NCBI RefSeq assembly: GCF_000012485.1
Contig: NC_007512.1
Location: 559,001 to 623,000 of the forward strand
Source: Pelodictyon luteolum DSM 273
GTDB lineage: Bacteria > Bacteroidota > Chlorobiia > Chlorobiales > Chlorobiaceae
Length of the DNA stretch: 64,000 nt
Direction: 5' to 3'
The translations under genes were made by a program, and so were the position numbers. Below, in pieces: positions 28,260 through 53,270 of this stretch; the stretch's first letter is position 1, and each line of letters starts with the position of its first letter. The notes beneath the pieces were generated by a model that searched no databases, was not told where the DNA came from, and was given only the letters and a program-made list of their open reading frames with translations.

Positions 28260-32861
<4,602 letters not shown>

Positions 32862-36112: not shown

Positions 36113-36181
36113 AATGATGACGCGGCCCGTAATCCGCTTTGTATTTTATGAATCTTGTCCTATATTAACAGCCTTTCAGAA

Positions 36182-36255
36182 GGGCGATTAGCTCAGTTGG
36201 TTAGAGCGCTACATTGACACTGTAGAGGTCAGAAGTTCGAATCTTCTATCGCCCA
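36182..36255 (+). tRNA. tRNA-Val(GAC)
   Basis: A 74-nt cloverleaf: acceptor GGGCGAT/ATCGCCC, D-arm GCTC...GAGC, anticodon stem CTACA/TGTAG with loop TTGACAC (anticodon GAC), T-arm AGAAG TTCGAAT CTTCT, discriminator A. CCA is not encoded. From the A of the anticodon onward the sequence recurs 3101 bp downstream, so this tRNA is the anchor of the island. Confidence 0.95.
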
Positions 36256-36599
36256 CATCCCACATAAAAGCCTGCAAGTAAACAACTTGCAGGCTTTTTC
36301 TTTCCTCCCTTGTACCGCCAAAATACTTCCACTTTATCCTAGTTAACTCCGTTTTCCCATGGTTTTGTTACGCCATTGTTATACGAGTTTTTTACTTCTC
36401 CTGAAAAAACCAGATAACTCATTGCATAATTGAATATTGCGCTTGTATGCGTAATGCCTGCGCTACCTCTACAATCTTTTTGTTCAGGTTTCTGGCATTT
36501 ATCGGTGCCAAATGGCCAGAACGTTTTTGGCTTCTTTAGCCCGAGGGTGGCTCATCTTATAAAAGGGGGCGATAGCTGCTACAATCTCCGCATGCTAAA
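36256..36599. other. Gene-free stretch between tRNA-Val and metallophosphoesterase gene
   Basis: AT-rich compared with neighbours. Holds the tRNA terminator, then ~300 bp with no ORF of coding character. TTTTGTTACGCCATTGTTATACGAG near 36363 resembles a GTTACG-containing stretch just left of the right repeat (39232-39258). Repeated at 39357-39700. Confidence 0.5.
36266..36299 (+). terminator. Terminator after tRNA-Val
   Basis: A 14-bp perfect stem AAAAGCCTGCAAGT/ACTTGCAGGCTTTT with a 5-nt loop, ending in five T, 11 bp past the tRNA. It is duplicated at 39367-39400 as part of the long repeat. Confidence 0.9.
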
Positions 36600-37388
36600 T
36601 CACTGAACGTTCAGCGTTTTGAGCGGATCGAAACCGTTGCCGTATTCGTGAGGATATCCTTTGGGGTTGCAGATCACTCTGGTCTCGCCGATTGAATACT
36701 CCATGGCGGTATGGCAGTGACCACAGATCCAGTAGGCTATTTTATGGGAGAGCACCTCTTTTTCAAGGTCTGACACATATGCCGCGTTCAGGAGGTCGTT
36801 TCGGTAACCAGGGGCGATTCCTTGTAGTGAGGGGTGATGATGGGTGACCACAATCACGGTGTATCCGAGTCCCGTATAGTGATCGACATCTTCAAAAAGC
36901 CTTTTTTTCTGCTTGTGATGAAGAGCGAGAAGGTACTCCGGCCGTAACCGGTGATAATCGGCTCCGACTTTAATCAGCCGATAGTCATTGAGGCCCTGAC
37001 TGACATCAAACATGGCGATTGGATTGCCGCCAAAAAAGTCTGTCCAGAGAGTGGTACCGATGATGGCGATTTTCTCCTTTTCCAGGATAAGCTGACCGGT
37101 ATCTACGTTGTGAAATCGATGCTCGGCGATGGCGTTCTGCCAGGAGTGCTTCTCGATGTTGCCGTGATACCATTCATGATTGCCCTCAATGACGAAAACG
37201 TCTCTGAACTGCTTTGAGCACTGCGAAAGAAAACCGAACCATGTCTGTTTTCTGCTCAGCAGCCCGATATCTCCAGCAAGGATGAGCACGGATTCATTGT
37301 CTTCGGCAAGTTCCGGAACCTGCCAGTTCTCGCTGCTCTCTTCCCGACAGAACTCGTTATGGATGTCGGACATGACTCTGAAAAGCAT
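36600..37388 (-). CDS. Calcineurin-like metallophosphoesterase
   Basis: 262 residues with all metallophosphoesterase blocks: MSDIHNEF (DxH, residues ~7-10), LILAGDIGLLS (GD), VIEGNHEWYHG (GNH-E), VVTHHHPSLQG and CGHCHTAMEY (GHxH). Cytoplasmic, no signal peptide. Substrate unknown. It is transcribed away from the AbiEi-AbiEii pair from a shared ~260-bp region, and the same phosphoesterase sequence is duplicated with an AbiE piece farther right, so it travels with that module. Its last 155 codons lie in the 851-bp repeat. Confidence 0.88.
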   Translation of the reverse strand: MLFRVMSDIHNEFCREESSENWQVPELAEDNESVLILAGDIGLLSRKQTWFGFLSQCSKQFRDVFVIEGNHEWYHGNIEKHSWQNAIAEHRFHNVDTGQLILEKEKIAIIGTTLWTDFFGGNPIAMFDVSQGLNDYRLIKVGADYHRLRPEYLLALHHKQKKRLFEDVDHYTGLGYTVIVVTHHHPSLQGIAPGYRNDLLNAAYVSDLEKEVLSHKIAYWICGHCHTAMEYSIGETRVICNPKGYPHEYGNGFDPLKTLNVQ

Positions 37389-37650: not shown

Positions 37651-38262
37651 ATGTCACAACAAAGTACAGTTGCAGATAAGGCCAAAGCTCTTATTCTTGC
37701 CCAGGGAGGCCTCATCCGTACCCGGGAAGCGATCAGTCTTGGTATTCATCCCCGGACGCTTTACAGTCTTCGTGACAGTGGTGAGCTTGAAGAGCTTTCT
37801 CGAGGGATTTACCAACTCAAAGGGTGGAAGCAGCTCGAATATCCTGATCTTGTCACCGTTGCACTGAGGGTTCCGAATGGTGTACTTTGCCTGGTTTCGG
37901 CACTCTCCTTTCACGAGATGACTACCCAGGTTCCACACAGTGTATCTCTTGCGCTTGAAAAAGGTGCCGAACAACCAAGAATCGAGTATCCTCCGGTTAC
38001 GGTTTTCCGGTTTTCACCCTCTTGTTTCAAGATCGGAATTGAAACGCATCAGCTCGATGGTGTTTCGGTGAAGATTTACAGTCCGGAAAAGACGCTTGTA
38101 GACTGCTTCAAATTCAGAAACAGGATCGGAATGGATATCGTGCTCGAAGCGCTCAAACTGTATCGGCAGAGAGTGCAAAAGAATCTGCATGCACTCATGC
38201 AGTATGCAGAGGTGTGCCGTGTTGCCTCGATCATGAAACCATATCTGGAGGCAACGCTGTGA
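37651..38262 (+). CDS. AbiEi-type antitoxin (type IV toxin-antitoxin), first pair
   Basis: 203 residues. An N-terminal winged-helix half (QGGLIRTREAISLGIHPRTLYSLRDSGELEELSRGIYQL) binds DNA and represses the operon in characterised AbiE systems. The C-terminal half (VKIYSPEKTLVDCFKFRNRIGMDIVLEALKLYRQR) is the part needed for antitoxicity. The stop TGA overlaps the GTG start of the toxin gene. Only the last ~65 codons are also present in the broken copy at 40179. Confidence 0.88.
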   Translation: MSQQSTVADKAKALILAQGGLIRTREAISLGIHPRTLYSLRDSGELEELSRGIYQLKGWKQLEYPDLVTVALRVPNGVLCLVSALSFHEMTTQVPHSVSLALEKGAEQPRIEYPPVTVFRFSPSCFKIGIETHQLDGVSVKIYSPEKTLVDCFKFRNRIGMDIVLEALKLYRQRVQKNLHALMQYAEVCRVASIMKPYLEATL

Positions 38263-38516
38263 GCGCAAATGCTATCAAAAATATCGGAGCCTCGGTCAGG
38301 CAAAGACTGTTGAACAAGGCGCGGCAGGAAAACAGGCCTTTTCAGGAGCTGTTGCAATACTATGCCATTGAGCGCTTTCTCTACCGTCTGTCGGTTTCCT
38401 CATTCGCAGATCGTTTCATTCTCAAGGGGGCATTGTTGCTCAGGGTCTGGCAAGCTCCCCTGGCAAGACCGACAATGGATATTGATATGCTCGGCAAAAC
38501 AGGAAACGCCCCGGAG
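38067..38516. repeat. Left copy of a 450-bp diverged repeat within AbiEi-AbiEii
   Basis: Matches 40179-40628 at a constant offset of 2112 with about 19-20 substitutions and no gap (~96% identical). It covers the end of the antitoxin and the first 86 codons of the toxin. Confidence 0.9.
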
Positions 38517-39197
38517 AGTATCATGACCATTATCCATCAGGTTTTAGCCGTTGAAAAACAAGGAGACGGGATCGTTTTCGATCCGGAATCAATCACCGTT
38601 GAGCCGATAACGGAAGATGCGGACTATGAAGGATTGCGCATACGATTTCGCGGTGATCTCGATGCCGCCCGACTGACTATCCAGCTTGATATTGGATTTG
38701 GAGACAAGGTCTACCCTGATCCAGTACAGGAATCGTTACCATCATTGCTGAATTTCCCTCAGGCTGAGATGTACTGTTACAGCAGGGAAAGCATGATTGC
38801 CGAAAAGTTTGAGGTGATGGCCAAGCTTGGCATCCTCAACAGCAGGATGAAAGACTTCTATGATATCTGGATGCTCTCACGCCAGTATGATTTCGAAGGT
38901 GCCAGTCTCGCAGAAGCCATCAGGCAGACGTTTGCGCAACGGGGAACAACGCTCGTCCAGATGAAAGAAATCTTTTCCGGAGAGTTCATTGAGGAGAAGC
39001 AGGTGCAATGGAATGCCTTCAGAAAACGTATTGGTCTTGAATACCTGCCGGCCTCGTTTGCTGATGTAGTGCAGCAGGTGCAGGTATTTCTATCTCCAGC
39101 TGTGGAAGCACTCAGGGCAAAGCGATTTTTTCAGGACAATTGGATTGCTCCGGATTCATGGCGGAGTAATCATGAAAAACCAGAGGTGAGAGCATAA
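38259..39197 (+). CDS. AbiEii-type nucleotidyltransferase toxin, first pair
   Basis: 312 residues of the DUF1814 nucleotidyltransferase family. Seen: the GS-like motif ILKGALLLRVW, the DxD pair in PTMDIDMLGK, LTIQLDIGFGD with a further acidic residue, and YSRESMIAEKFEVMAKLG...RMKDFYDIWML typical of AbiEii/AbiGii. Such toxins are bacteriostatic nucleotidyltransferases used in phage defence. I chose GTG at 38259: GGAGG lies 8 nt upstream and the codon overlaps the AbiEi stop as GTGA. An ATG farther upstream (38214) lies inside the antitoxin gene and lacks this. Confidence 0.88.
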   Translation: MSANAIKNIGASVRQRLLNKARQENRPFQELLQYYAIERFLYRLSVSSFADRFILKGALLLRVWQAPLARPTMDIDMLGKTGNAPESIMTIIHQVLAVEKQGDGIVFDPESITVEPITEDADYEGLRIRFRGDLDAARLTIQLDIGFGDKVYPDPVQESLPSLLNFPQAEMYCYSRESMIAEKFEVMAKLGILNSRMKDFYDIWMLSRQYDFEGASLAEAIRQTFAQRGTTLVQMKEIFSGEFIEEKQVQWNAFRKRIGLEYLPASFADVVQQVQVFLSPAVEALRAKRFFQDNWIAPDSWRSNHEKPEVRA

Positions 39198-39317
39198 TCG
39201 TTGCTTTTATTTATTGATCGATAGTGATAAAATTTTGTTACGCGTATGTTACGCGAAAATTTTTATAGGCCAGTAACTCCTTTTATATCAATGGCATATA
39301 GCCTTGGTATGATATTT

Positions 39318-40168
39318 ACACTGTAGAGGTCAGAAGTTCGAATCTTCTATCGCCCACATCCCACATAAAAGCCTGCAAGTAAACAACTTGCAGGCTTTTT
39401 CTTTCCTCCCTTGTACCGCCAAAATACTTCCACTTTATCCTAGTTAACTCCGTTTTCCCATGGTTTTGTTACGCCATTGTTATACGAGTTTTTTACTTCT
39501 CCTGAAAAAACCAGATAACTCATTGCATAATTGAATATTGCGCTTGTATGCGTAATGCCTGCGCTACCTCTACAATCTTTTTGTTCAGGTTTCTGGCATT
39601 TATCGGTGCCAAATGGCCAGAACGTTTTTGGCTTCTTTAGCCCGAGGGTGGCTCATCTTATAAAAGGGGGCGATAGCTGCTACAATCTCCGCATGCTAAA
39701 TCACTGAACGTTCAGCGTTTTGAGCGGATCGAAACCGTTGCCGTATTCGTGAGGATATCCTTTGGGGTTGCAGATCACTCTGGTCTCGCCGATTGAATAC
39801 TCCATGGCGGTATGGCAGTGACCACAGATCCAGTAGGCTATTTTATGGGAGAGCACCTCTTTTTCAAGGTCTGACACATATGCCGCGTTCAGGAGGTCGT
39901 TTCGGTAACCAGGGGCGATTCCTTGTAGTGAGGGGTGATGATGGGTGACCACAATCACGGTGTATCCGAGTCCCGTATAGTGATCGACATCTTCAAAAAG
40001 CCTTTTTTTCTGCTTGTGATGAAGAGCGAGAAGGTACTCCGGCCGTAACCGGTGATAATCGGCTCCGACTTTAATCAGCCGATAGTCATTGAGGCCCTGA
40101 CTGACATCAAACATGGCGATTGGATTGCCGCCAAAAAAGTCTGTCCAGAGAGTGGTACCGATGATGGC
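39318..40168. repeat. Right copy of the 851-bp tRNA-linked direct repeat
   Basis: Begins with the tRNA-Val 3' part (39318-39356), which has no 5' half here, then a second copy of the tRNA terminator (39367-39400), the gene-free stretch and the truncated phosphoesterase gene. It breaks off at 40168, where the sequence jumps to the AbiE fragment. Confidence 0.93.
39701..40168 (-). pseudogene. Truncated metallophosphoesterase (C-terminal 155 codons)
   Basis: Identical to the C-terminal part of the gene at 36600-37388, including the THHHPS and CGHCHTAM motifs. It lacks the first 107 residues, thus the DxH, GD and GNHE metal ligands. The break at 40168 joins directly to AbiE sequence. An ATG at 40114 would give 137 residues, but without the N-terminal metal ligands this should not be active. 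Confidence 0.9.
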
Positions 40169-40178
40169 TGAGTGTCCC

Positions 40179-40628: not shown

Positions 40629-40631
40629 TGA
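40371..40631 (+). pseudogene. AbiEii toxin remnant (N-terminal 86 codons)
   Basis: Starts with the same GGAGG-spaced GTG as the intact toxin and runs to TMDIDMLGRTGNAPE, then hits a TGA at the join with RhuM-like sequence. It keeps the KGALLL and DxD motifs but not the rest of the nucleotidyltransferase. Confidence 0.9.
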
Positions 40632-40832
40632 CTGACTGAGTTTGTCAGGAAGGGCTTTCTCTTGGACGATGAACGCCTGAAAAACCCGGATCAACCCTTT
40701 GACTACTTCGAGGAGCTTGAGTGGCGCATTCAGGACATCAGGACTTCAGAGCGTCGATTCTATCAGAAGATTACGGACATATACGCTACCAGCATTGATT
40801 ATGATCCGACTTTGGATGTTGAACGGGGTTAA
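40632..40832 (+). pseudogene. RhuM-family virulence/phage-linked protein, C-terminal remnant
   Basis: A 66-codon open frame with no start codon follows the AbiEii fragment's stop. Reads LTEFVRKGFLLDDERLKNPD, then QPFDYFEELEWRIQDIRTSE and RRFYQKITDIYATSIDYDPT, the conserved C-terminal region of RhuM proteins, ending in TAA. The first two-thirds of the gene are missing. RhuM genes are common in islands and near restriction systems; this one is a fossil. Confidence 0.75.
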
Positions 40833-41101
40833 CTGTTTGTGCGAGATTTCCATCGTCGCATCCGGAAGTACTTGTTGCAGTGCTTCTTCATCGGTCTCTT
40901 GGGGGCTGCGATGGTTATAGGTAAGACTGCGCTGGAAGGGATGGGCAGCAAGATGAGTCCTGGCATCTATACCGTAACTGCGCAGGAATTGCTCATCGAG
41001 TGTGAGAGGGACTTTCAGGTTTACGGCCCTGCCTCTATGAACCGTTCATGAAAAACATCATTTTGTGTTGTTTTTCTCGAACGATTCATGTACCTAAGAA
41101 T
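40833..41101. other. Gap between RhuM remnant and second AbiE pair
   Basis: About 270 bp. Both strands have one open frame of ~70 codons here, but neither resembles a family I know. It contains the promoter region of the second AbiEi gene. Probably more island debris. Confidence 0.4.
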
Positions 41102-41884
41102 ATGAATCTATCCCGATACATAGACGGATTACAGGCAAAAGGCTCTTTCTGTTTCAGCGGCGCAGAAGCTTCTTCAGCTCTTTGTTCGAGTGCGATTGCT
41201 ACCCGTGACGCATTGCGTCGTTTGCGGTACAAGCGTGTCGTTGCTATGCCATATCGTGGATTTTATGTGGTCGTTCCGCCGGAATACCGCCAGATAGGAT
41301 GTCTGCCGGCAAACCAGTTTATTCCGTCATTGATGGAGTATCTGAAAGAGCCCTACTATGCCGGGCTGCTCTCTGCCGGTGAGTATTATGGTGCTGCCCA
41401 TCAACGCCCTCAGTCTTTTCAGGTCATTCTGGAGCATATACGCCCGGCAATCATCTGTGGCTCGGTCAAGGTCGATTTCATACAGCGGAACAATGCTGCT
41501 CTCATGCCGACCCGAAACTTCAAAACCCCGCGGGGGTATCTGAAGGTATCTTCTCCCGAGGTGACGGCTTTTGATGTAACCGGATATCCCCATCATGCAG
41601 GAGGGCTTGATAATGCGGCAACCGTGCTGGCTGAATTGGCTGAAGGCATGGATGCCGGGAAATTGCTTGATATCGCCGGGTTGTCGCCCGTTACCTGGTC
41701 TCAGCGTTTAGGTTACTTGCTGGAGTTGATCGGCGAGGATGGACTTGCTGAGGGGTTAGCCGCATATGTTGCGGAGCGAAAGCCGGTTCCGGCTCTTCTT
41801 TCCCCGTCACAGCCGCATCATGGTGTCCATCAGGTGCCCCGCTGGCGGCTGCTCCCAAATGAAACGGTTTCCCCTGATCTATGA
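41102..41884 (+). CDS. AbiEi-type antitoxin, second and unrelated pair
   Basis: 260 residues from ATG 41102 (MNLSRYIDGLQAKGSFCFSGAEA...), which matches how this subtype normally begins; an in-frame ATG at 41048 would add 18 residues. N-terminal wing: ATRDALRRLRYKRVVAMPYRGFYVVVPPEY. Middle: FIPSLMEYLKEPYYAGLLSAGEYYGAAHQRPQSFQVI. C-terminal half: YLKVSSPEVTAFDVTGYPHHAGGLDNAATVLAEL. This is the longer AbiEi subtype and shares little with the 203-residue protein at 37651. Its stop overlaps the toxin start by 4 bp (ATGA). Confidence 0.88.
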   Translation: MNLSRYIDGLQAKGSFCFSGAEASSALCSSAIATRDALRRLRYKRVVAMPYRGFYVVVPPEYRQIGCLPANQFIPSLMEYLKEPYYAGLLSAGEYYGAAHQRPQSFQVILEHIRPAIICGSVKVDFIQRNNAALMPTRNFKTPRGYLKVSSPEVTAFDVTGYPHHAGGLDNAATVLAELAEGMDAGKLLDIAGLSPVTWSQRLGYLLELIGEDGLAEGLAAYVAERKPVPALLSPSQPHHGVHQVPRWRLLPNETVSPDL

Positions 41885-42726
41885 TCCCTCTTGATTATAT
41901 CACAGAATGGCGGTCTCATGCTCCTTGGCAGCAGATATCCCAGGTGGAGCAGGATATGATCATATGTCGTTCGCTGGTTGAACTTTACAGTCATCCTGTT
42001 GCAGCTGCCAATCTGGTGTTTCGTGGTGGTACGGCCCTCTTCAAGCTTCATCTTTCACCGGCGAGATATTCGGAAGATATCGATCTGGTTCAAAAGGAGC
42101 CGGGGCCGATCGGCCCGGTCATGGATGCGATCAAGGAAAAGCTGAATCCCTGGCTTGGAGAACCTAGGCGGAAGCAGTCGGAAGGCCGTGTGACGCTGAT
42201 ATGGCGAGTTGACTCAGAGGAGGGGATGCCTTTGCGATTGAAAGTGGAAATCAATTCCAGGGAGCGCTTTAGCGTACTTGGATATCAGCAGCTGCCATTT
42301 GAAATGACATCTCGATGGTATTCAGGCAGCGCTGCCATTACCAGTTACGGCCGGGACGAACTGCTTGGCACGAAGCTGCGGGCACTGTATCAGCGTAAAA
42401 AAGGCAGAGATTTGTACGATCTGTGGTATGCAGCGAAGACGATGCCCCTCAACCCGGAGGCCATGGTGTCATGTTTTTTGCGCTACATGGAGCATGAACA
42501 GCATACGGTTACCCGTGCAGAATTCGAGATGAACCTATTGGAAAAGCTGGATGATCCGCGTTTTCTCGGGGATATAGGACCGTTATTGGCCCCGTTATTA
42601 ACCAGTAAGACAGAGTGGGACGCGAAGTCTGCCGGAATCTATGTGCTTGAGGCGCTGACTCCGCTGATGCCCGGTGATGCATGGCAAAAGACGCAGGAGA
42701 AGTTGGCAGCCTTTAAGGCGAACTGA
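41881..42726 (+). CDS. AbiEii-type nucleotidyltransferase toxin, second pair
   Basis: 281 residues, DUF1814 family. Motifs: LVFRGGTALFKLHL (GG-x-S/T motif, ~residue 47), RYSEDIDLVQ with the DxD pair, LRLKVEINSRE, and ELLGTKLRALYQRKKGRDLYDLWYA (conserved K...GRDLYDLW). It should be a growth-inhibiting nucleotidyltransferase neutralised by the coupled AbiEi. The gene immediately precedes, in convergent orientation, the Wadjet operon. Confidence 0.9.
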   Translation: MIPLDYITEWRSHAPWQQISQVEQDMIICRSLVELYSHPVAAANLVFRGGTALFKLHLSPARYSEDIDLVQKEPGPIGPVMDAIKEKLNPWLGEPRRKQSEGRVTLIWRVDSEEGMPLRLKVEINSRERFSVLGYQQLPFEMTSRWYSGSAAITSYGRDELLGTKLRALYQRKKGRDLYDLWYAAKTMPLNPEAMVSCFLRYMEHEQHTVTRAEFEMNLLEKLDDPRFLGDIGPLLAPLLTSKTEWDAKSAGIYVLEALTPLMPGDAWQKTQEKLAAFKAN

Positions 42727-43050
42727 CGGGGTCGCATACGTACGCATTGTTAATGCGTTTAGACCCTACCGAAAGCCGCCCTCAGCTCCTGATGCCCTCA
42801 ATGCATTGCAGGGATTGCTGATTACCTGGAGCTGGGAAAGTCGGACTGGCCATCATTCGGTTCTGTCGATGAACGGCCTGATTGGACTATGCACCCCGAA
42901 ATCCAGGGTGGAGAGTTCCTGGTATATGTCTGACAAGGATCGCCTCGATCTGATGTTAAGCTCTTGGTTGATGGTCTTTGGTGAGAACCGAGCGGCGTGC
43001 GTTAAAGGATTCGTGCCTGCCGGTTTTTTTCGGAGAGTGCTTTTCCGAGG
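42727..43050. other. Gap between AbiEii and jetD, with a possible gene remnant
   Basis: About 320 bp between convergent genes. On the plus strand 42793-42933 is an open stretch without a start codon that reads protein-like (DYLELGKSDWPSFGSVDERP, then DWTMHPEIQGGEFLVYV and a stop). I do not recognise it. The rest is featureless; no clear terminator is seen. Confidence 0.35.
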
Positions 43051-44262
43051 TTATGATGATGCAGATAAGGCCGGGTTCTTTCTCAGCGCATCAAGGAGCA
43101 TGGAATATCCGATCTTTTCCTGTTCGAGCCGTATGTGCTCACCCAGATTATTCTGCCGCAGATCGTTGAAAAGGGATTGCTCCGGGTCGGTAAGCCGTTG
43201 GAGGGCGGTGGTTTCCGGGCAGGGTTCTCTCTGCCAGTATTGGCGATGGGCGAGGAGGGTTTCCCTGTCCATGAGGAATGATGTGGCGGTGGGGAAGTAT
43301 TGGCGGAACTGGTTTAGAATGGCGAAACCATGGGTGTCGATGTCACCCCAGTAGTAAAGCTTTTTATCCTGCAGCCAGCTGACGACGGCGAGGTTGCTGA
43401 AGCCGTAGCCTGCTCCGAAGATGACCATTGCCCGCGGGATGGGCGGAAGGACGAGGAAGTTGATTTCGTTTTCGGTGACGAAGACGGTTTCAACCGGGAG
43501 GTGGAGCCGGGCGAAGTCGGTATGGGTAAGGGTGATTTCCTGATCGGTGCAGTATGGCAGAATGGAGTAAGCGGAATCAAGGATTCGGAACCGCACCCGG
43601 AGCGCTTTGTCCCGGAACCCGTAGCGCCGGCAGAAGTTTGTGGTGCCGGTGGCATGTTCGTCGATTGAACTCTTCGGCAGGGCGAGGTCGAAGAGTTCCG
43701 AGAGCACGCCGCGGTGGCGTTCGATGAATTTGGTGTGCACGCCGGCAATATCGATTTGCCTGAGGTAGACGGCGGGCCGGGGATGCTGGCGCAGCCATTC
43801 GACGATGTTGAGCATGAGGGGCCAGACCGTGGCAAGTTCCAGAGCGCGAAGGGGTCGTTTCGAGATCCAGGGGAGCAGAGCGGGCTCATATCGCCGGGTC
43901 AACTCGATCATATCGACAAATGCGGCAGCGGCGCGACGTTTGCCGATGAGGCCGAGGGCGTCGTCCGCCGAATCGATCCATATCTCGTATGGAATGCTGT
44001 CGCTGCCGTGCACCCGGTGGTTGAGGGTGCGCGAGACGATGCGGTAGGGCCCTTCAGCTGCTTTGAGCCGGGCGATCCAGTCGCGTACCTCGATAAACCG
44101 GTCGCTGATCTCTCGTGAGTCCGGCCTGCTGTGGCCGAGTCGCAGGGGGAAGAGGTCCCGGTCATCCACCAGGGCGTTGAGCAGTGTCCCCCTGTCCCAG
44201 AGCCTCTGCACCTGTTCCCGGATGTCGGCAGGGGTGGTCCAGTCCTTTTTTGTTCCGCTCAT
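43051..44262 (-). CDS. jetD: Wadjet system nuclease subunit JetD
   Basis: 403 residues, DUF3322 followed by DUF2220. The C-terminal Toprim-like part has TENEINFLVLPP with the catalytic-type Glu (~264), IFGAGYGFSNL and YWGDIDTHGFAILNQFR with the two metal-binding Asp (~307, 309). In characterised Wadjet systems JetD cuts plasmid DNA after the JetABC motor extrudes it. The start overlaps the jetC stop by 4 bp (ATGA). Length is typical. Confidence 0.93.
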   Translation of the reverse strand: MSGTKKDWTTPADIREQVQRLWDRGTLLNALVDDRDLFPLRLGHSRPDSREISDRFIEVRDWIARLKAAEGPYRIVSRTLNHRVHGSDSIPYEIWIDSADDALGLIGKRRAAAAFVDMIELTRRYEPALLPWISKRPLRALELATVWPLMLNIVEWLRQHPRPAVYLRQIDIAGVHTKFIERHRGVLSELFDLALPKSSIDEHATGTTNFCRRYGFRDKALRVRFRILDSAYSILPYCTDQEITLTHTDFARLHLPVETVFVTENEINFLVLPPIPRAMVIFGAGYGFSNLAVVSWLQDKKLYYWGDIDTHGFAILNQFRQYFPTATSFLMDRETLLAHRQYWQREPCPETTALQRLTDPEQSLFNDLRQNNLGEHIRLEQEKIGYSMLLDALRKNPALSASS

Positions 44263-47200
44263 TGGGCCATCTTCTGCTTTTCTGTACGATACTCTTCGAT
44301 GCTGAGGTTTCGCAGCTCGGAGTTCCGGCCATCCTTGTTCTGCACAAACCCGACGCTGGAGACGAAGGGTTCAATGATGTGGATTTTCTGCAGCGGGGTG
44401 ACGATGAGCAACTGCAGGTTGAGCTGGGCGAAGAGTTTCAGCCCGTAATGGGCAGATTCGTCAGACCCGCGTCCGAAGGCTTCGTCGATGACCACGAAGC
44501 GGAAGGAACGGGATCGCACCTCTCCCCATTCGAGACCGAACTGATAGGCGAGGCTGGCTGCAAGCACCGTATAGGCAAGTTTCTCCTTCTGTCCGCCCGA
44601 TTTACCGCCCGAGTCGGCATAGTGCTCATGTTCGCTATCATCCTCCCTCCATCGTTCGCTTGCTGCAAACACAAACCAGTTACGGACGTCGGTCACTTTT
44701 TCCCTCCAGCGGCGGTCAAGTTCGCTGTACTCATCGCGTCCACGGAAACGGTCGATGATCCGGCGAACCTGGAGAAACTTGGCTTCGGAGTATTCGCTGT
44801 CCGAGCCGGTGAGAGCTCCTTCGGTGCAGCTCCGCAGCTCTGTCTGGAACTCGCGGATGTCGGCATCCAGGTTCATCTCCGCTTCGAGGAGGATGTAGCG
44901 GCCGGGATTGTAGTCGATTTTTGTGAGCGATTCATTGATGCGTCCGATGCGTTCCTTGATGGTTTCTCGTTCACGTGCAAGCTGGGACTGGAAGTTGGCC
45001 ACTTCGCGGATGGTGTTCTCGTTGAGCAGATCCTTGAAGCGCACTTCAAAGCGCGGCAAATCGTCAGCACGGAGATTGCCGAGCATTGAGCGGTACTCAT
45101 CGGCCGAGGCTATGTTGACATCGACCTCACGGGTCTCAAGTTTCCATTTCTCGTTATACTCGGTCATCAGGCGGATTATCTTGTCGTTCAGGCGCCTGAT
45201 TTTGTTGTCTTCAGCATCGATTTTCGACTGCAGCCAGTCGCGCATGTCGCGTTCGCAGTTATCGCACGATTCGATGGTGATGGCACGGTTTTCCGTCATC
45301 TCCAGCCGCAGCGATTCAAGGCGGGGGAAGCGTTCCGCAGATTCCGGAACAGCTTCGTTCAGGCATTGCCCGGCCTGTTCTGCGAGTTCCTTCGCATCGC
45401 TGATTTTCTGCTCGGTTTTTGCGTGCCTGCTTTTGCGCTCGTTGAGTTGGCGCTCGGTCTCACGGAGTTCCTGCTCAACCTCCTGGAGCTGCAGGGTGAG
45501 GGTTCGGAGGATGTCGGACGTGCTCTCCAGTTCCCGCTTTTCGGCTTCGAGCCGGGCGATGGCGACCGCCACCGGCTGCCAGTCGAGTTCATGAAAGTCG
45601 GAATACTCGTCGAGGCGCGAGAGGATGGCCAGGCGTTCCTTCAGGGCGGTCTGCTCCTGCCGGAGTGCTTTCATCCGGCTGTTCAGCTCGCCAAGGCAGT
45701 CGTTTTTTTGACGGGCATTCTCTTCGAGCACGGTGATCTTGGCGGCGTTGCTCCAGCCGAGTACAAATCGGCTGCGGTCGTCGAGGCGGTGGCGGTCATC
45801 TTTTTCGTGGCGTTCACCCGCCATCTTGACCTGTCCGGCCATCGTAATCGCCTTTTTCTCACGTCGGAACATCTCTTGACTGTCGCAGCAGACCACGTCG
45901 AAACGGCGGTTTATCTCCCCTTCGAGCCATTCAAAGTGGGGGGAGTCTGCCTTAATCATGAGTTTATGCGGCAGGGTGGCGGGGCCGGGGGGCATTGTTT
46001 CGCTGCGGGACGGTGTGCGCACCCGGAAGTAGACGAGACGACCCTTGAGGTGGGTGCAATCAACCCATTCGGCGACGGATGCGTAGTAGCGGTCGGGAAC
46101 GAGCAGCGAGAGTGCGAAGTTGCGCAGCAGGCGTTCGATGGCCCCTTCCCATCCGTTCTCCTCCTGGCGCACCTGAAGAAGTTCTCCCGCAAATGGCATC
46201 TCATTTTCGTCGATGCCCAGCGCCCGGCAGAGGTCGCGTCGCATTGCAATCTGCCTGTCGTCGATATTGTTTGTGCGAGCCTTCAGGCTCTCGATTTCAG
46301 CCATCAGCTCCCGGTATTCCTGTTCTTCGCGGGTGAGGGTGACTCCCAGCTCGTTCAGCTCGTTCTGTATCCTTGCTTCCTGTCCGGCTGCGTTTTCGCG
46401 CATGGTTACCTGCAGGGTGCGCTTATGGAGGAACTCCTCGAGGCTGCTGGCGGGTGTTTCGCCGAGCGGCTTGAGCAGCTCAGCATAGCGGGTGGCTTTG
46501 AGCTTTTTATGTTCGAGTTCGCCCTGCTTCATGCGGATGTCGGAGGCGATGCTCTCGATTCGGTCGCCCCCGCTCTCTCTGATGGTGAGCCGGAGACTGC
46601 GATCCCGCTCCTGTTGTTCGAGTCGCTCTGCTTCGAGGCGCCTGAGGGAGCTCTCATGGCGAACGAGTTCTTCTTCGAGCGAGGTGAGGCGGTGGTGGAG
46701 CAGGTCGAGCTTGAGGGTCGCGAACCAGGGGCGCAGGGTTTCACGGCAGCCGCGCAACTCTTCGTTGGAGGCGGAGAGCTCCCTGTGCCGGTTGCAGTCC
46801 TCAACGAGCGGATCGAGCATCGAGATCTGCTGTTTAGCCTTGAGCACGGCTTCGTGTGCGCGCTTGAGGTCTTCGAAGTGGTTGATGAGGGCTGCGATGC
46901 GGGGCTCGACGTCGAAGGGTTCGAGCATGTGGGTGCGCACGAAGTCGGTTAGGTTTCCAACCGATTTGAGCGAGACGGTCTGATGGAACAGCTCCAGCGC
47001 CTGGTCGTTGTCGATGCCGAAACGGCGGCGGAACCAGGATCCGTATTTCGGGAAGCTGTCGAACAGCTCGACGCCTCCCGCTTTCAGTCTCTTGCGCAGG
47101 GCGGTGATCTCCGGGCCGAAGCCGGAAAAGTCGATTGCGATGGAGAGGTCGCGTTCGGCTGCCGCATAGATGCGCGCGGGCGGGCCGGAGGGATCCTTCA

Positions 47201-47624
47201 TCCAGAATACCTGGGCAAGGGTCACGGTCTTGTCATAGCCTTCGTTCCGGAAGACGCCGAGCACCACCGAGTAGGCGCTGCTGTCGCGAAGGGCGACTGG
47301 TTTGGCGCCACCGCCAAGTGACTCCTGTCGCTCCGATTTGTAGAAGCCGAGCACATACGACCGGAGTGAGCGCTCCCGGATATCGGCACCGGCAGCTTTG
47401 TTGTAGATAATGCGCTGGCTCGGGACGAGCAGCGTGGTGAGGGCGTCGACCAGGGTCGATTTGCCTGAGCCGATGTCTCCGGTGAGGAGCCCGTTCAGTC
47501 CATCGAGCCGGAGCGTCCAGACGCGGCTGTCGAAGGTACCCCAGTTGAACACCTCGATCCGCTGGAGGCGGAAACCTGCGAGTCGGTCGTCTGAGATGAA
47601 TCCCAGTTCAAGTGCTTCAGCCAT
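44259..47624 (-). CDS. jetC: Wadjet system SMC-like ATPase JetC
   Basis: 1121 residues, MukB/SbcC-like. N-terminal Walker A GDIGSGKST at ~49-57, then long coiled coils (~280-480 and ~690-960) around a hinge-like segment, and a C-terminal head with signature SGGKSGGQKEKLAYTVLA and Walker B FRFVVIDEAFGRGSDES. Uses ATP to extrude DNA loops; circular plasmids are recognised and passed to JetD. I start at 47624 (MAEALELGFISDDRL); the frame stays open 50 codons upstream into jetB without homology. It overlaps jetB by 8 bp and jetD by 4 bp. Confidence 0.94.
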   Translation of the reverse strand: MAEALELGFISDDRLAGFRLQRIEVFNWGTFDSRVWTLRLDGLNGLLTGDIGSGKSTLVDALTTLLVPSQRIIYNKAAGADIRERSLRSYVLGFYKSERQESLGGGAKPVALRDSSAYSVVLGVFRNEGYDKTVTLAQVFWMKDPSGPPARIYAAAERDLSIAIDFSGFGPEITALRKRLKAGGVELFDSFPKYGSWFRRRFGIDNDQALELFHQTVSLKSVGNLTDFVRTHMLEPFDVEPRIAALINHFEDLKRAHEAVLKAKQQISMLDPLVEDCNRHRELSASNEELRGCRETLRPWFATLKLDLLHHRLTSLEEELVRHESSLRRLEAERLEQQERDRSLRLTIRESGGDRIESIASDIRMKQGELEHKKLKATRYAELLKPLGETPASSLEEFLHKRTLQVTMRENAAGQEARIQNELNELGVTLTREEQEYRELMAEIESLKARTNNIDDRQIAMRRDLCRALGIDENEMPFAGELLQVRQEENGWEGAIERLLRNFALSLLVPDRYYASVAEWVDCTHLKGRLVYFRVRTPSRSETMPPGPATLPHKLMIKADSPHFEWLEGEINRRFDVVCCDSQEMFRREKKAITMAGQVKMAGERHEKDDRHRLDDRSRFVLGWSNAAKITVLEENARQKNDCLGELNSRMKALRQEQTALKERLAILSRLDEYSDFHELDWQPVAVAIARLEAEKRELESTSDILRTLTLQLQEVEQELRETERQLNERKSRHAKTEQKISDAKELAEQAGQCLNEAVPESAERFPRLESLRLEMTENRAITIESCDNCERDMRDWLQSKIDAEDNKIRRLNDKIIRLMTEYNEKWKLETREVDVNIASADEYRSMLGNLRADDLPRFEVRFKDLLNENTIREVANFQSQLARERETIKERIGRINESLTKIDYNPGRYILLEAEMNLDADIREFQTELRSCTEGALTGSDSEYSEAKFLQVRRIIDRFRGRDEYSELDRRWREKVTDVRNWFVFAASERWREDDSEHEHYADSGGKSGGQKEKLAYTVLAASLAYQFGLEWGEVRSRSFRFVVIDEAFGRGSDESAHYGLKLFAQLNLQLLIVTPLQKIHIIEPFVSSVGFVQNKDGRNSELRNLSIEEYRTEKQKMAQ

Positions 47625-48252
47625 CCGTTTCCTCCGTAGATTTTCCGCTGAGTTGGCGGTACTCGTCGAGTCGGCGGTCGAAATCGGCCAGCCACTGTGC
47701 ATCGACAAAGGCTTTGATGATGCGCCGTACCTCAATCGTCTGTTTGTCGTTTCGCAGGCGCCGGATGAACCCAAGCTCGGCGATCTTGTTCAGGGATGCA
47801 TCAACCTGGTCGATAAGCTTCACCTCATTGCTCCCTGCCGGGAGGAAGATACGGATCAGCTCGACCACCTCCTCGCGTGAGAGGATCAGGCGGGTGTCCC
47901 CACCGCCAGCATCGGATTCGGCGAGTTTCTTGCGCAGGAGCGCGAGCAGGAGGCTGACCGGGTAGGAGAGCTGTCGCCGGGCCACCAGGCGCGGCATGGA
48001 GTCCTGACTCTCCTCTTCACCCGCCGCGCGGGACCTCAGGAAGGCATAGCCCTCTGCTTCGTCGAGTATCAGTTCGAGGCCGAGCACCGAAATGTAATCG
48101 CGTACGCCTGCCTGCATGTTCAGCAGCGCGTTCCAGAGTGCAGTGTTCTCCTCCTCGTAGAGGACTCCTTTGAGCAGGGTGACCACCAGGGGCGAAAGCT
48201 CCTCGGGCGCTGTTGCCGGCCGCGGGGTTTGGGCGTCTATGGGAGTTGTCAT
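47617..48252 (-). CDS. jetB: Wadjet system subunit JetB (MukE-like, DUF4194)
   Basis: 211 residues. A poorly conserved N-terminus leads to LSPLVVTLLKGVLYEEENTALWNALLNMQAGVRDYISVLGLELILDEAEGYAFLR and tandem winged-helix character (ARRQLSYPVSLLLALLRKKLAES; LSREEVVELIRIFLPA; IDQVDASLNKIAELGFIRRL). This is the DUF4194/MukE-like kite subunit that binds the JetA kleisin. ATG at 48252 shares one base with the jetA stop. Confidence 0.92.
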   Translation of the reverse strand: MTTPIDAQTPRPATAPEELSPLVVTLLKGVLYEEENTALWNALLNMQAGVRDYISVLGLELILDEAEGYAFLRSRAAGEEESQDSMPRLVARRQLSYPVSLLLALLRKKLAESDAGGGDTRLILSREEVVELIRIFLPAGSNEVKLIDQVDASLNKIAELGFIRRLRNDKQTIEVRRIIKAFVDAQWLADFDRRLDEYRQLSGKSTEETDG

Positions 48253-49700
48253 TAGTCGTTGCGTACAAAGATGATTCTTGGTAGTGTTGCCCGTCGCATA
48301 AAACCGTTTTCACCTTCCCATTCAATCCGCTCTTCAACCTCATCGTCTACTGCCGTACGGGGCCACTCTCCGGCGATCTGGAGGTAGGTGACCAGCTCGG
48401 CCAGCCCGTGTTGAAGGGGATGGAGGGCGATCAGCTCGCCGAGGCCGATCTGCTTTTGTTCCTGAAGCGCCTTGCGGATGTTGCCCGTCAGTTCTGCGCG
48501 GTCGATGATTACCTGTGCGTAGAGGGCGGCAGTGTCGATTTCAGCATCTCCCGCCTCAAGCGCAATGCCTTCGATTACCGGTTTGAAGGGCGGGCGGTAC
48601 AGCGGTCGTTCAAACGGCAGTTCGATCGAGGCTGAGGCATCGGCAATGGGCATGAAGCTTCCTTCGGGCATCTGTCCATTGAGGCCGAGAGCACTGCTTT
48701 CGATGTCGTGCAGGATATCCATTATACGGCGGTTTTCGAGCCAAGCCTTGTCATCGAGGAACTTGCGCAACTGTCCGGAGAGGCGGGCTACAGTGCGCTG
48801 GGTGTGCTCGCCCGCTTCGAGCCAGTCGTAGTGCACCCGCTTCAGGCGGGGTTCGGGATGCATCTCCACTACTGGCGGAAGGTTCAGCACCTCGTCAAGC
48901 AGGACGCTCAGTTCTTCCTGACGTGACTGCGACATCAGGAACCCCCAGAAGGCCCGGAAGCTTTTGCCCTGGTCAGAGTCGGCAATGGCATCGCGCTGTC
49001 CCATGATCTCTTCAAGCAGAGCTCCCTTGCTTCCTTCCCAGAGAGCGATGCGCTCCCGCACACGCCGGTCGAGCGTACGGAAATTCTGCTCCACCTCGCG
49101 GAAGTCGGTCAGCAGCTCGCGTGCCAGCTGCAGGAACTGCTGGAAGCGATCCTTGAGCGCCGTGTCATCAAGCAGGGAGATGTCTCCGGCATGGATGCGG
49201 GCAATCTCCCCATCGATCTCTTCGCGGCGCCGGTTCAGCTCGGCGATTCGCAGCTCCGGATCGGCCTGGCTGCCGGTGCTCATCTGACGCAACAGCTCGA
49301 AGAGGGTCAGGAGGCGGGATTCGGTGCCGACGAAGGCGCGTTCGGAAAGGCTTTCCAGCCAGGCCAGAGCCTTTTCGGTGGCAGGGGTCACATCGTAATG
49401 AGGTTCGTCCTCTCCGACTGGATAGAACTTTCTCAACCACCCCTTGTCATTCTCCGCCCAATCGTTCAGATAGCTCTGTGCAGAGCCGGGATACGCTGTG
49501 TCTCCAAGCTGACGGCGAAGCGCGAAGAGTTCGTCCTCAAGCTGTTCGACAAGGTCGGCCTCTGAGAGGGTGCGCACATTGGGCGCAATGAATGCCCGGT
49601 GCAGGAACGATGATACCAAAGGCGCATGCTGCGCCCGCAACAGGCGCCAGGCCGGATGGTTCTGGCGGAGCAGATCGAGGGTGGTATAGTCGAGAGCCAT
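48252..49700 (-). CDS. jetA: Wadjet system kleisin JetA (MukF-like, DUF3375)
   Basis: 482 residues of DUF3375. N-terminal helical winged domain (YTTLDLLRQNHPAWRLLRAQHAPLVSSFLHRAFI), a coiled-coil middle (IAELNRRREEIDGEIARIHAG; LLTDFREVEQNFRTLDRRVRERI) and a C-terminal winged part. It is the kleisin joining two JetC heads. First gene of the four-gene operon: jetA/jetB share 1 bp, jetB/jetC overlap 8 bp, jetC/jetD overlap 4 bp, so translation is coupled through all four. Base composition is closer to the core genome than that of the AbiE section. Confidence 0.93.
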   Translation of the reverse strand: MALDYTTLDLLRQNHPAWRLLRAQHAPLVSSFLHRAFIAPNVRTLSEADLVEQLEDELFALRRQLGDTAYPGSAQSYLNDWAENDKGWLRKFYPVGEDEPHYDVTPATEKALAWLESLSERAFVGTESRLLTLFELLRQMSTGSQADPELRIAELNRRREEIDGEIARIHAGDISLLDDTALKDRFQQFLQLARELLTDFREVEQNFRTLDRRVRERIALWEGSKGALLEEIMGQRDAIADSDQGKSFRAFWGFLMSQSRQEELSVLLDEVLNLPPVVEMHPEPRLKRVHYDWLEAGEHTQRTVARLSGQLRKFLDDKAWLENRRIMDILHDIESSALGLNGQMPEGSFMPIADASASIELPFERPLYRPPFKPVIEGIALEAGDAEIDTAALYAQVIIDRAELTGNIRKALQEQKQIGLGELIALHPLQHGLAELVTYLQIAGEWPRTAVDDEVEERIEWEGENGFMRRATLPRIIFVRND

Positions 49701-50212
49701 CAGCGCATCTCAAAGCTTTCCGTCAACAAAAAGCGTGAGTGTCGCCCGCCTTTTCCGGTGATACTATGGATGACGTATGGTGACGAATACATGAGGAAAA
49801 AGGGGAATTGGTTGCATATGCCGCAGCCGCAGGCGTTCATTCAGGATCAACCTGACATAAGCAGCGTACACTGTATTATATAACACTATTTTCCGGTTTG
49901 ATTCTGAACTTAAAAAGCATGGCTTCAACAGCTTGAAACGTTTGCCGATAGAGCCGGCCGGGATGGACAGGTCTGCCGCCGGGAGGATCCGGGGGATATC
50001 TGGGGGAACTTGTATCCACTGGTCCGGGAGCTGCCGCCCGGTCATTGCGTGATCATTCCGGACATGGGCGGCACCCTGACTTGCCGTCCATCGGGTGATG
50101 GTGATCCACTCTGCCATCAGATAAGTCCGGAAAAGCAACGAAGCGTGTCCCTGTGCGTGTTTCTGTCCCGAACTAGCTCCCCTGACGGCCCCTTGTTCGT
50201 CCTGCTTCGTCC
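49701..50212. other. Intergenic region upstream of jetA
   Basis: About 510 bp between the jetA start and the end of the aldolase gene. On the minus strand a TATAAT (49875-49880) in an AT-rich patch could be a -10 box for the Wadjet operon; the -35 is not clear. No RNA gene is seen; a 182-codon minus-strand frame running into the aldolase gene has no coding character. Confidence 0.4.
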
Positions 50213-51220
50213 TTACTCGATATATTCTCCCCGACGGGCCATGGCGTTGCTGCGGGAGCGGTGCAGGAGGGTTGTCTGTGCGGCCTCCCTCTGGGCGTCC
50301 TCCCCGTTCCACTGTGCCATGGCTGTCTGCTGGATGGCGCGGGCGAAGGAGAAGGAGAGCGCCCAGGGCGCGGTCTGGCGATAGCGTTCGTTGATTGCGC
50401 TGAGGCGGGCTGAGGCCAGCTGGCCAGGCTGGCCTCCGGAGAGGAAGGCGATGACGGGAACGGCTGCGGGTACGGTGCGCAGCATGCAGCGCAGGGTGGC
50501 GTCAGCCTCCTCCATGATGGTATTCTGTATGGGGCAGCCGAGGGCGGGAAGCACCATGCTGGTTTTCAGTACCGTTCCCTCAAGCAGCACCCTCTGGTGG
50601 ACAAGACTGCTGAATACCTCCCGGAGCACCACTTCAGTCACCTCTTCGCATTGATCCATCGTATGCGTCCCCTCCATCAGGACTTCCGGCTCTACTACGG
50701 GGACCAGCCCCGCCTCCTGCGCCAGCGCGGCATATCGTGCCAGAGCGTGCGCGTTGGCTTCGATGCACCCACGGGTGGGGATGCCCTCTGCGATGGTGAT
50801 GACCGCACGCCATTTGGCGAACCGTGCGCCCGCTTCGCGGTACTTTTCAAGCCGTTCGCGCAGTCCGTCAAGGCCTTCGGTGATTTTTTCTCCCGGATGC
50901 AGCGCCATGGCTTTTGCTCTTTCGTCCACCTTGATGCCGGGGATAATGCCTGCCTCCCGGAGCACTTCGACGATAGGCTGTCCTGCTGCAGTCTTTTGCC
51001 GGATGGTTTCCTCAAAAAGGATTGCGCCCGAAATGAAGTCGCCTATGCCGGGGCTCGTGGCGATCAGTTCCCGCCACTGCCGCCGTTTTTCCTCAGTCTC
51101 CTCAATGCCCAGTATGGCGAAACGCCGGTTGCAGGTCGGCACGCTTTCATCCATCGCCAGAATGCCTTTGTCGCCGGCGGCAAGTGCCCGGGCGGTTTCC
51201 TTGAGTGTTTCGCTGTCCAT
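50213..51220 (-). CDS. Class I fructose-bisphosphate aldolase
   Basis: 335 residues. LAAGDKGILAMDESVPTCNRRF at the N-terminus, PVVEPEVLMEGTHTMDQC, and LEGTVLKTSMVLP with the Schiff-base Lys, as in eukaryote-type class I aldolases; ends near LSFSFARAIQQTAMAQWNGE. It works in gluconeogenesis and glycolysis without a metal ion. ATG at 51220 follows GGAG at good spacing; the open frame upstream to 51358 is not homologous. Confidence 0.93.
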   Translation of the reverse strand: MDSETLKETARALAAGDKGILAMDESVPTCNRRFAILGIEETEEKRRQWRELIATSPGIGDFISGAILFEETIRQKTAAGQPIVEVLREAGIIPGIKVDERAKAMALHPGEKITEGLDGLRERLEKYREAGARFAKWRAVITIAEGIPTRGCIEANAHALARYAALAQEAGLVPVVEPEVLMEGTHTMDQCEEVTEVVLREVFSSLVHQRVLLEGTVLKTSMVLPALGCPIQNTIMEEADATLRCMLRTVPAAVPVIAFLSGGQPGQLASARLSAINERYRQTAPWALSFSFARAIQQTAMAQWNGEDAQREAAQTTLLHRSRSNAMARRGEYIE

Positions 51221-51429
51221 GTTCGTTCTCCGTTGAAGGATTTCGGTCGCCTCTGGAGGGGATGGGTCGAGTACAAACGCAATCGGCAGGACCTCCAAAA
51301 AGTTGCAGGCCTCCCGAGAGGAGCGCTTGCAGGAGAGGGGACGGTGCGCTATACTCACTTAAACACCCTGCAGCAGACTCATTCTGCCTGCACGGGGGAT
51401 TTCCAGAAAAGCAATGGTTGTGAGGGGTG

Positions 51430-53262
51430 ATGAAGAAAGGACGAGAACGCAGCGGAATGTTCCGGGCATGGTCATTGGTTCTGCTGCTTGCATTGAGCGG
51501 TATCGTACCGGCGGCCTGGAGCGCACTCCATGCAGCGGGTCCCGCCGATCCCTCAAGCGCGTTCCGGCTTCGGGGGGAACTGCTTCGAAATGGCTCAGTC
51601 AGTCTCCGGTGGGAGATTGCTGAAGGCTACAAGCTATACGGTGACCAGGTGCGTCTGGAGGTTGACAGCGGATCAGTCTCAATGACCCCTCCGGTACTGC
51701 CTGAGGGAGAGCAGGCTCTGGATCCCCTTACCGGTGAGGCCGCAGCCGTGTATCACGACTCCCTCCGACTCACGGTGCCCTTTACCGCTACGGGAAGCCC
51801 GTTCGTTCTCAGGGTATGGCATCAGGGCTGCGCCGATGAGGGGATCTGTTACCCTCCGGCTGCGACCCTGTTCCGCATTGATCCCGAAAAGCCGGGTCCA
51901 CTTCGCGCAGAGGCCGGCAGTGCGGGGTTCGGGGTACTTCCCGCGTCCCCGTCCGCATCTTTCGAGCCGCCTTCCGACACTGCGCCCTCACCCGTCATGG
52001 CAACCCTCATGGAAGGGTCGCTGTGGAAGATCGGCGCGGTGTTTTTCGTCTTCGGCCTCCTGCTCTCCTTAACGCCCTGCATCCTGCCGATGCTGCCGAT
52101 CCTCTCCTCCATCATCGCCGGTGAGGCGTCTCCTTCGCGCTCGCGGGGTCTTCTGCTCGCTCTCGTCTACAGTGCCGGTATGGCTGTGGTCTATACGGGT
52201 ATGGGCGTCGCTGCCGGTCTTGCCGGCGAAGGGCTTGCCGGGTTCCTGCAGCAGCCGCCGGTGCTGCTGGGTTTTGCGTTCCTGCTCATCCTGCTTTCGC
52301 TTTCCATGTTCGACCTCTACCAGCTCCAGATACCGGCTTCCCTCCAGAAACGGCTTAACAGTGCGTCGGTTACATTGAAAGGGGGGCGGTTTCCGGGAGT
52401 GTTCCTGATGGGTGCGATCTCGGCGCTCGTGATCGGTCCATGCGTCGCCGCACCGCTTGCCGGGACTCTGATCTTCATCAGCCAGACGGGAGACCTGCTC
52501 CTCGGCGGCATGGCGCTTTTTTCGATGGCAGCGGGCATGAGTGTCCCTCTCCTCCTGCTCGGTCTTTCGGCAGGGTTCCTTCTTCCGCGGGCCGGCGGGT
52601 GGATGGTCGCCGTCAAATACCTGTTCGGCATCCTTCTCATCGCCGTAGCCATCAACATGGCCTCTCCCGTTCTTCCTCCGCCGGCAGTCATGACAGCCTG
52701 GGCCATGCTTCTGGTACTTGCAGCCTATTTCCTTGGCGTTTTCCAGCGCTCCGGGGGAAATGCTTCTTCACTGAACCTTGCTGGAAGGGCAACCGGGTTC
52801 TTATGCCTGCTTCTTGCCGCAGTCATGGTGTTCGGGGCCGCGACAGGCGCAAGGAGCCCGGGCGATCTCTTGAGGGTGCTTGGCGGTACTGCTGTTGATG
52901 GCCGCCAGCCGGCGCTGCAGTTCCTGATGATCAGCTCCGATGCTGAACTCGATCGTGAACTCCGTGATGCCGACCGTCCCGTGATGCTTGACTTCTCGGC
53001 TGACTGGTGCGTCTCATGCAGGGAGCTTGAGCATATCACCTTCCGCGATCCGGAGGTGGCAGCTGCACTCGGCCGGATGAGGCTTCTCAGGGTCGACGTG
53101 ACCAGGCACACGCCTGAAGACCGTCGGCTCATGAAGCGGTTCGGGGTGTTCGGGCCGCCGGCACTGGTGTTTTTCGATTCGAAGGGCAGGGAGCTGTCGG
53201 GCCTGCGGGTGGATGGGTTCATCGCTCCGAAGGACCTCCTGGAGCTGATCCGGAGGCCCTGA
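51430..53262 (+). CDS. dsbD: Thiol:disulfide interchange protein DsbD
   Basis: 610 residues carrying electrons from cytosolic thioredoxin to periplasmic disulfides. Domains: signal peptide, N-terminal immunoglobulin-like domain with QGCADEGICYPP Cys pair (~120-133), eight transmembrane helices (~200-470) with the redox Cys in LTPCILPMLPIL and GPCVAAPLAGTL, and a C-terminal thioredoxin domain with DWCVSCRELE. The start may be ATG 51430 (GAGGGG close upstream), a GTG one codon before, or ATG 51457 directly before the hydrophobic signal core. Confidence 0.93.
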   Translation: MKKGRERSGMFRAWSLVLLLALSGIVPAAWSALHAAGPADPSSAFRLRGELLRNGSVSLRWEIAEGYKLYGDQVRLEVDSGSVSMTPPVLPEGEQALDPLTGEAAAVYHDSLRLTVPFTATGSPFVLRVWHQGCADEGICYPPAATLFRIDPEKPGPLRAEAGSAGFGVLPASPSASFEPPSDTAPSPVMATLMEGSLWKIGAVFFVFGLLLSLTPCILPMLPILSSIIAGEASPSRSRGLLLALVYSAGMAVVYTGMGVAAGLAGEGLAGFLQQPPVLLGFAFLLILLSLSMFDLYQLQIPASLQKRLNSASVTLKGGRFPGVFLMGAISALVIGPCVAAPLAGTLIFISQTGDLLLGGMALFSMAAGMSVPLLLLGLSAGFLLPRAGGWMVAVKYLFGILLIAVAINMASPVLPPPAVMTAWAMLLVLAAYFLGVFQRSGGNASSLNLAGRATGFLCLLLAAVMVFGAATGARSPGDLLRVLGGTAVDGRQPALQFLMISSDAELDRELRDADRPVMLDFSADWCVSCRELEHITFRDPEVAAALGRMRLLRVDVTRHTPEDRRLMKRFGVFGPPALVFFDSKGRELSGLRVDGFIAPKDLLELIRRP

Positions 53263-53270
53263 AAAGCAAA

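Follow-up and report, generated by a model that had tools for sequence, protein, structure and literature searches.

The jet genes at positions 49700 to 43051 of the 64,000-nucleotide stretch of Pelodictyon luteolum DSM 273 analysed here (the window) very probably form an intact type I Wadjet plasmid-defence operon that was gained, by the stock of this genome and its relative G017, from outside their own genus branch, most likely from the Chlorobaculum-like side of the Chlorobiaceae, and that lies in a recently shared block running from a tRNA-Val gene to an aldolase gene. What the analysis shows directly is the genes with their motifs, a predicted JetD fold, the phylogeny of JetA and the low divergence found across the block. 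Type I Wadjet is known as a kind; what is new is a further member, in this strain. The literature searched, which took in few subscription journals, yielded no account of Wadjet in green sulfur bacteria.

Gene content and active sites of the jet operon

The genes jetA-jetB-jetC-jetD are all open and co-directional, and their order is that of type I Wadjet:

48252..49700, minus strand: jetA, 482 aa; kleisin-like subunit, DUF3375
47617..48252, minus strand: jetB, 211 aa; MukE/MksE-like KITE subunit, DUF4194; without the N-terminal extension that bears an IFDR-type motif
44259..47624, minus strand: jetC, 1121 aa from ATG; SMC/MukB-like ATPase
43051..44262, minus strand: jetD, 403 aa; CAP-Toprim nuclease, DUF3322 and JetD_C

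The mechanical jetC ORF starts upstream at a TTG (47774); the 1121 residues are counted from the ATG. All genes overlap, as the first-pass annotation had stated: jetA/jetB by 1 nt (TAATG), jetB/jetC by 8 nt and jetC/jetD by 4 nt (ATGA). The best PADLOC models are those of type I (JetA1, E 7.1e-227; JetB1, 6.7e-92; JetC1, E 0 and 1631 bits; JetD1, 9.8e-148), and the type II and III models listed score far below them (JetC2, 23 bits; JetD3, 22.9; JetD2, 17.1). Pfam matches are DUF3375 (JetA), DUF4194 and MksE (JetB), AAA_29 and SbcC_Walker_B (JetC), and DUF3322 and JetD_C (JetD). The PADLOC and Pfam family matches of the four proteins far exceed chance. Promoter- and terminator-like sites (4 and 4, against shuffle means of 2.8 and 9.2) are uninformative. 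With four open, linked genes, each best matched by a type I model, the complete JetABCD operon first proposed is confirmed as a reading of the sequence; it is ordinary in its main features and probably functional.

The catalytic motifs that had been claimed for JetC and JetD are all found. JetC carries a Walker A motif (GDIGSGKST, from residue 49), a signature motif (SGGQ, 1009) and a Walker B motif (VIDEAF, 1045), invariant in 5/5 aligned JetC sequences. The JetD Toprim ligands are E264, D307 and D309, with Y286, E380 and E382 as further noted residues. E264, Y286, D307, D309 and E380 are present in 73/73 JetD rows, a set made up of the window and the 72 of 75 matches that are near full length and free of stops. 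In the E. coli chain the residue aligned with E264 is position 248, a Glu that is mutated in 8q72.

The JetD fold model, predicted from an alignment (A2) of 30 of the 73 rows, has a mean pLDDT of 89.8. Compared by VIA-align, which re-examined Foldseek's own match list, the model matches Corynebacterium glutamicum MksG (8b7f) with a Z of 25.3 over 361 residues (rmsd 7.1) and Pseudomonas aeruginosa JetD (7til) with a Z of 23.1 over 366 residues; the rmsd of 15.9 to the latter indicates that the domains are placed differently in the model. The next fold match is topoisomerase VI (Z 12.7).

The solved JetABCD complexes of P. aeruginosa PA14 and E. coli GF4-3 resemble the chlorobial system in their four subunits, sequence matches, Walker motifs, and Toprim Glu and DxD. 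JetC is 73-80% identical in rows titled Chlorobiaceae, Chlorobaculum, Chlorobium or Pelodictyon, and 67-71% identical in rows titled Desulfuromonas, Desulfuromonadales or Desulfuromonadaceae. Other Chlorobiaceae Wadjet loci share the gene order but differ in genomic site, and some have inserts between jetB and jetC.

Could these genes encode a chromosome-organising condensin of the MukBEF/MksBEF kind instead of a defence system? JetB also matches the Pfam MksE model, and the NCBIfam SMC_prok_B model matches JetC weakly, far under its cut-off, in a search with no match above the NCBIfam cut-offs. The linked jetD nuclease with its intact active site, the patchy presence of the operon (33/61 family genomes) and the differing sites among relatives make a condensin extremely unlikely. 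A decaying or silent operon, kept by chance, also seems improbable. Jet genes do look broken in some relatives, all of them draft assemblies (G017 and G013 in jetC, G041 through a stop in jetA), but in the window the four frames are open with intact motifs, and dN/dS against G017 is low for jetC (0.06, over 1045 of 1121 codons), jetA (0.17) and jetB (0.27). For jetD the ratio is 0.72, from few changes (dN 0.0138, dS 0.0191), and this pair thus does not show selection on the nuclease.

Several jet loci of relatives are unusual in structure. In some Chlorobiaceae a short ORF fuses the JetA start (~52 aa) to the JetB end (from residue 178), with the same junction each time, right before jetC (L091 3204-3449; L104 7454-7705; L127 8756-8992, with L274 seemingly the same contig; eroded in L093 2208-2344). 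Full jetAB then stands elsewhere: ~12 kb off in L093 (G031), where genes that by eye are TA-like lie between the two, ~30 kb off in G047, and on other contigs in G059 and G311. The first 35 jetC codons of G013 are repeated either side of a ~2.2 kb insert (L100 8481-10766, 13861-14118), and this jetC has a frame change near residue 1034. Five relatives have a gap of about 195-580 bp between jetA and jetB (L085, L086, L088, L089, L121); by eye, a GTCATTCTGA...GAATCC-type repeat that resembles a small mobile element is present in the gaps of L086, L089 and L121.

The tRNA-Val-to-aldolase block and the origin of the operon

The operon lies in the following setting, the last gene of which we take to be a class I fructose-bisphosphate aldolase:

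36182..36256, plus strand: tRNA-Val (gac), an integration hot spot
36213..37067, plus strand: 855-bp direct repeat, copy 1, beginning inside the tRNA-Val
39314..40168, plus strand: 855-bp direct repeat, copy 2, 99.9% identical, carrying a tRNA-Val 3' end
36600..37388, minus strand: metallophosphoesterase (MPE) of the tRNA-flanked unit
37651..39197, plus strand: AbiEi-AbiEii pair 1 (PADLOC, Pfam)
41048..42726, plus strand: AbiEi-AbiEii pair 2 (PADLOC, Pfam)
50213..51358, minus strand: aldolase gene, far end of the low-divergence block

The AbiEi/AbiEii pairs that adjoin the operon belong to a separate system, a type IV toxin-antitoxin, and the Jet proteins match no AbiE model. The AbiE1 unit is flanked by two tRNA-Val 3' ends (at 36213 and 39314). 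Further tRNA-Val copies were looked for beyond this unit, including beyond jet, without success (40641-51430 gave a best local score of 18, and 50 shuffles gave scores of up to 25), and a search of 34000-54000 for Rfam RNAs returned only the tRNA. The description of the locus as the end of a tRNA-linked AbiE island is therefore right in that jet adjoins AbiE modules downstream of the tRNA, but the tRNA link itself is shown for the 36213-39314 unit only. AbiE genes are bordered by tRNA-Val ends in G050 too, and such ends recur in G044, a genome that is otherwise distant and holds 95-96% protein relatives of the MPE/AbiE1 unit. An MPE gene is a repeated neighbour of AbiE genes: besides the tRNA-Val unit, it is seen in DNA matches around 748-750 kb of the window genome (L002, L003) and in G044 (L116 2283-3068). 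Right after the tRNA-Val of G023 (L107 after 4727) there is a frame that by eye resembles a tyrosine recombinase, and a similar, truncated start follows the tRNA-Val of G029 directly (L109 before 14932).

Comparison with G017 delimits the block. The flanking core genes, which we take to be clpX, gltD and rnr and which alone provide the baseline, have dS values of 0.37, 0.38 and 0.35, whereas those of jetA-D are 0.095, 0.032, 0.072 and 0.019 and those of the aldolase, MPE and AbiEi1 genes are 0.085, 0.075 and 0.073. This low divergence indicates that the tRNA-Val-to-aldolase block was shared recently, and its evenness that the divergence of jet and of AbiE1/MPE between the two genomes began at a similar, recent date. 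In 500-bp windows over 14001-64000, identity to G017 is mostly 0.95-0.99 over 36001-49500, with several of them between 38501 and 43000 holding few aligned bases or none (G017 lacks counterparts of parts of 38517-42886), and 0.90-0.97 over 49501-51500, where the 500-bp piece at 49501-50000 reaches just 0.896; outside the block it is 0.80-0.95 on 18001-36000 and 0.80-0.94 on 51501-64000. A second stretch outside the island, 14001-18000, also has raised identity (0.92-0.99).

In G017 a multi-copy sequence interrupts jetC at a contig break, and the operon thus seems dispensable in that genome. The sequence at the break (L105 13713-13781, L106 1-18; 47391-47396 in the window) occurs at 7 further positions, of which 4 lie no more than 8 bases from a contig start, and ~6 bp are repeated at the break; judged from these features it is probably an insertion sequence.

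The first-pass annotation had proposed examining conservation in the Chlorobiaceae. A JetA match occurs in 33/61 family genomes, this one included, and presence is patchy. Across the phylum, 61/394 genomes have DUF3375, with 58 of these passing the cut-off; this family accounts for 50 of the 61, and 8 genomes outside it pass the cut-off. In a quick JetA tree without bootstrap (31/33 genomes with JetA, G027 and G041 being left out, and 5/6 outgroup loci), the window and G017 group with six rows of the sister genus, taken here as Chlorobaculum, and with G009 and G058 of their own genus (SH-aLRT 100), apart from 21 of the 25 rows of that genus. An AU test on JetA rejects the own genus as one clade (p 8.35e-05). 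The sister genus as one clade is not rejected (p 0.096). In a ClpX tree, likewise quick and without bootstrap (41/61 genomes, without G048 though it is near the window by ClpX), the own genus forms one clade (100) with G017, G023, G029 and G007 nearest to the window. The two trees are thus incongruent, and no JetA match was found in the nearest lineages G023, G029, G007 and G048. Outside G017, JetA identity is at most 88%. Plasmids offered no near source: JetC relatives were found in 13/72,556 plasmid records at E 1e-20, with a best identity of 59%.

Insertion sites differ as well. G007 has an empty site on one contig, in which the tRNA-Val is followed after 714 bp by a match to the gene that follows the aldolase in the window. 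Jet flanks were viewed in 14 genomes that have the other JetA type of the genus. In 6 of them jet stands between two genes that we take to encode an ABC protein and a large ribonucleotide-reductase-like protein, and another 3 keep one of these two neighbours. The same site is empty in the window genome (G000), where the two flanking frames stand 126 bp apart. The ribonucleotide-reductase-like gene at this empty site (L276 5661-10241) is a 1526-codon frame with a ~1 kb in-frame insert compared with relatives of ~1150 codons; the insert is possibly an intein.

These results bear on the age of the operon. The first-pass annotation noted the near-core base composition of jet and took it to mean that Wadjet is the older part of the island, to which the AbiE modules were added afterwards. 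The composition is as described: GC is 59.4% for jet against 58.0 and 58.6% for the window flanks, 48.2% for MPE/AbiE1 and 52.0% for AbiE2, and the GC3 of jet is core-like too. The age drawn from it is unsupported. The nearest jet relatives are in the same family, so a core-like GC is expected whatever the age, and the divergence of jet and AbiE1/MPE is alike, so composition says nothing on which of them joined first. An older resident would also fit the position of jet as the part farthest from the tRNA, the near identity of the second AbiE1 copy to the first, and the close MPE/AbiE1 relatives in G044 compared with the more distant JetA relatives outside G017. Set against these are the dS against G017, low alike for jet, MPE, AbiEi1 and aldolase; the nearest lineages without JetA; the incongruence of JetA with ClpX; and the genus' common jet site, which is empty here. 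These points do not date the joining of the parts, but with them we regard an older Wadjet resident as rather unlikely and favour gain of the operon from outside the genus branch. The second AbiE1 copy (855 bp, 99.9% identical within the genome) alone looks later.

The JetB N-terminus and the JetD tyrosine

According to PMC10586767, an IFDR motif at the JetB N-terminus contacts JetD; this motif is reported for a studied complex and is not a defining feature of type I Wadjet. The solved JetB chains of PA14 and E. coli GF4-3 are ~30 residues longer at the N-terminus than chlorobial JetB, which aligns from residue 15 or 25 to solved-chain residue 48 or 54 and so is without about 29-33 N-terminal residues of the deposited chains, in which tags are possible. 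By eye, the window JetB has no IFDR-type motif. A relaxed pattern, run without the solved JetB chains as a control, was absent in 74/74 relatives with near-full JetB (77 matches, less the fragments L127, L128 and L131). Of three longer JetB proteins, the L216 one fits the pattern (LFDQYR), the L260 one does not but by eye contains IFDTIAAR, and the L230 one shows neither. Short JetB is found in 8/8 phylum genomes outside the family and in the actinobacterial relatives L228, L261 and L262. The JetC of the window shares 41-48% identity with the four actinobacterial plasmid copies H2-H5 and 24-31% with H6, H8 and H9 of the long-JetB kind, whose records are those of L230, L260 and L216.

JetD position 286 is Tyr in all 73 rows, and also in Thiodictyon, Nocardia, two Streptomyces records and MksG. 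It is Phe in all 6 readable rows of phylum genomes that lie outside the family, Leu in the E. coli GF4-3 chain, and Ala in L216 and L230. Besides the 73-row set, the comparison took in 16 records, of which L229 and L260 gave no reading at the JetD columns and L268 and L269 had no JetD match.

MksG of C. glutamicum MksBEFG, a type I Wadjet from another phylum, is the best solved match of JetD by both sequence and fold, and JetD E264/Y286/D307 align with MksG E236/Y258/D279 (numbering of PMC10123090) with the same spacing. In that paper, the Y258A substitution drastically lowers cleavage and leaves residual activity, MksG binds the kleisin MksF, and the authors state that the tyrosine seems conserved in actinobacterial homologues of MksG and not in JetD. 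A short, motif-less JetB together with a tyrosine in 73/73 JetD rows places the chlorobial system closer to C. glutamicum MksBEFG than to the E. coli and P. aeruginosa models, a likeness that rests on the JetD/MksG comparison, with short JetB seen in actinobacterial relatives. Chlorobial Wadjet is thus probably MksBEFG-like in the docking and chemistry of its nuclease.

We tentatively suggest, as one joint reading that could well prove wrong, that type I Wadjet comprises two mechanistic branches. The first, to which the chlorobial operon might belong, would combine a short JetB, an aromatic residue over the JetD Toprim metal site and a kleisin-docked JetD, and would take in Chlorobiota, Desulfobacterota, many Pseudomonadota and Actinobacteria, with Phe for Tyr in other genomes of the Bacteroidota phylum. 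The second, of the E. coli GF4-3 and PA14 type, would have an N-terminal JetD tether on JetB and no such aromatic. The long-JetB examples behind this suggestion are few and of shared ancestry, not independent events. In the literature searched, no paper beyond PMC10123090 was found on a split of type I by JetB length and JetD tyrosine.

Predicted mechanism and significance

The biochemical steps are inferred from studied systems. JetABC, an SMC complex, is thought to extrude DNA, and JetD to cut once extrusion on a small circle is complete; linear DNA and plasmids above about 100 kb escape Wadjet (PMC10586767). In P. luteolum, JetA, JetB and JetC would make up an SMC motor dimer whose DNA extrusion depends on ATP; on small circles the motors would meet, and a JetD Toprim dimer would then cut the DNA. 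The cleavage metal would be held by E264 and D307/D309, and Y286 probably aids cleavage, as does Y258 in MksG. The kleisin JetA, and not JetB, probably provides the docking site for JetD, in the way that MksF does for MksG. That the operon restricts plasmids in this strain, as the first-pass annotation expected, is a fair inference from the family.

The analysis corrects an age reading drawn from base composition and points to a less-studied nuclease branch. If the two-branch reading is true, the well-studied structures may not apply to the anchoring and activation of chlorobial JetD. In bacteria that are hard to manipulate genetically, Wadjet stands in the way of such work; should this be so for green sulfur bacteria too, removing the system could make them accessible to plasmids.
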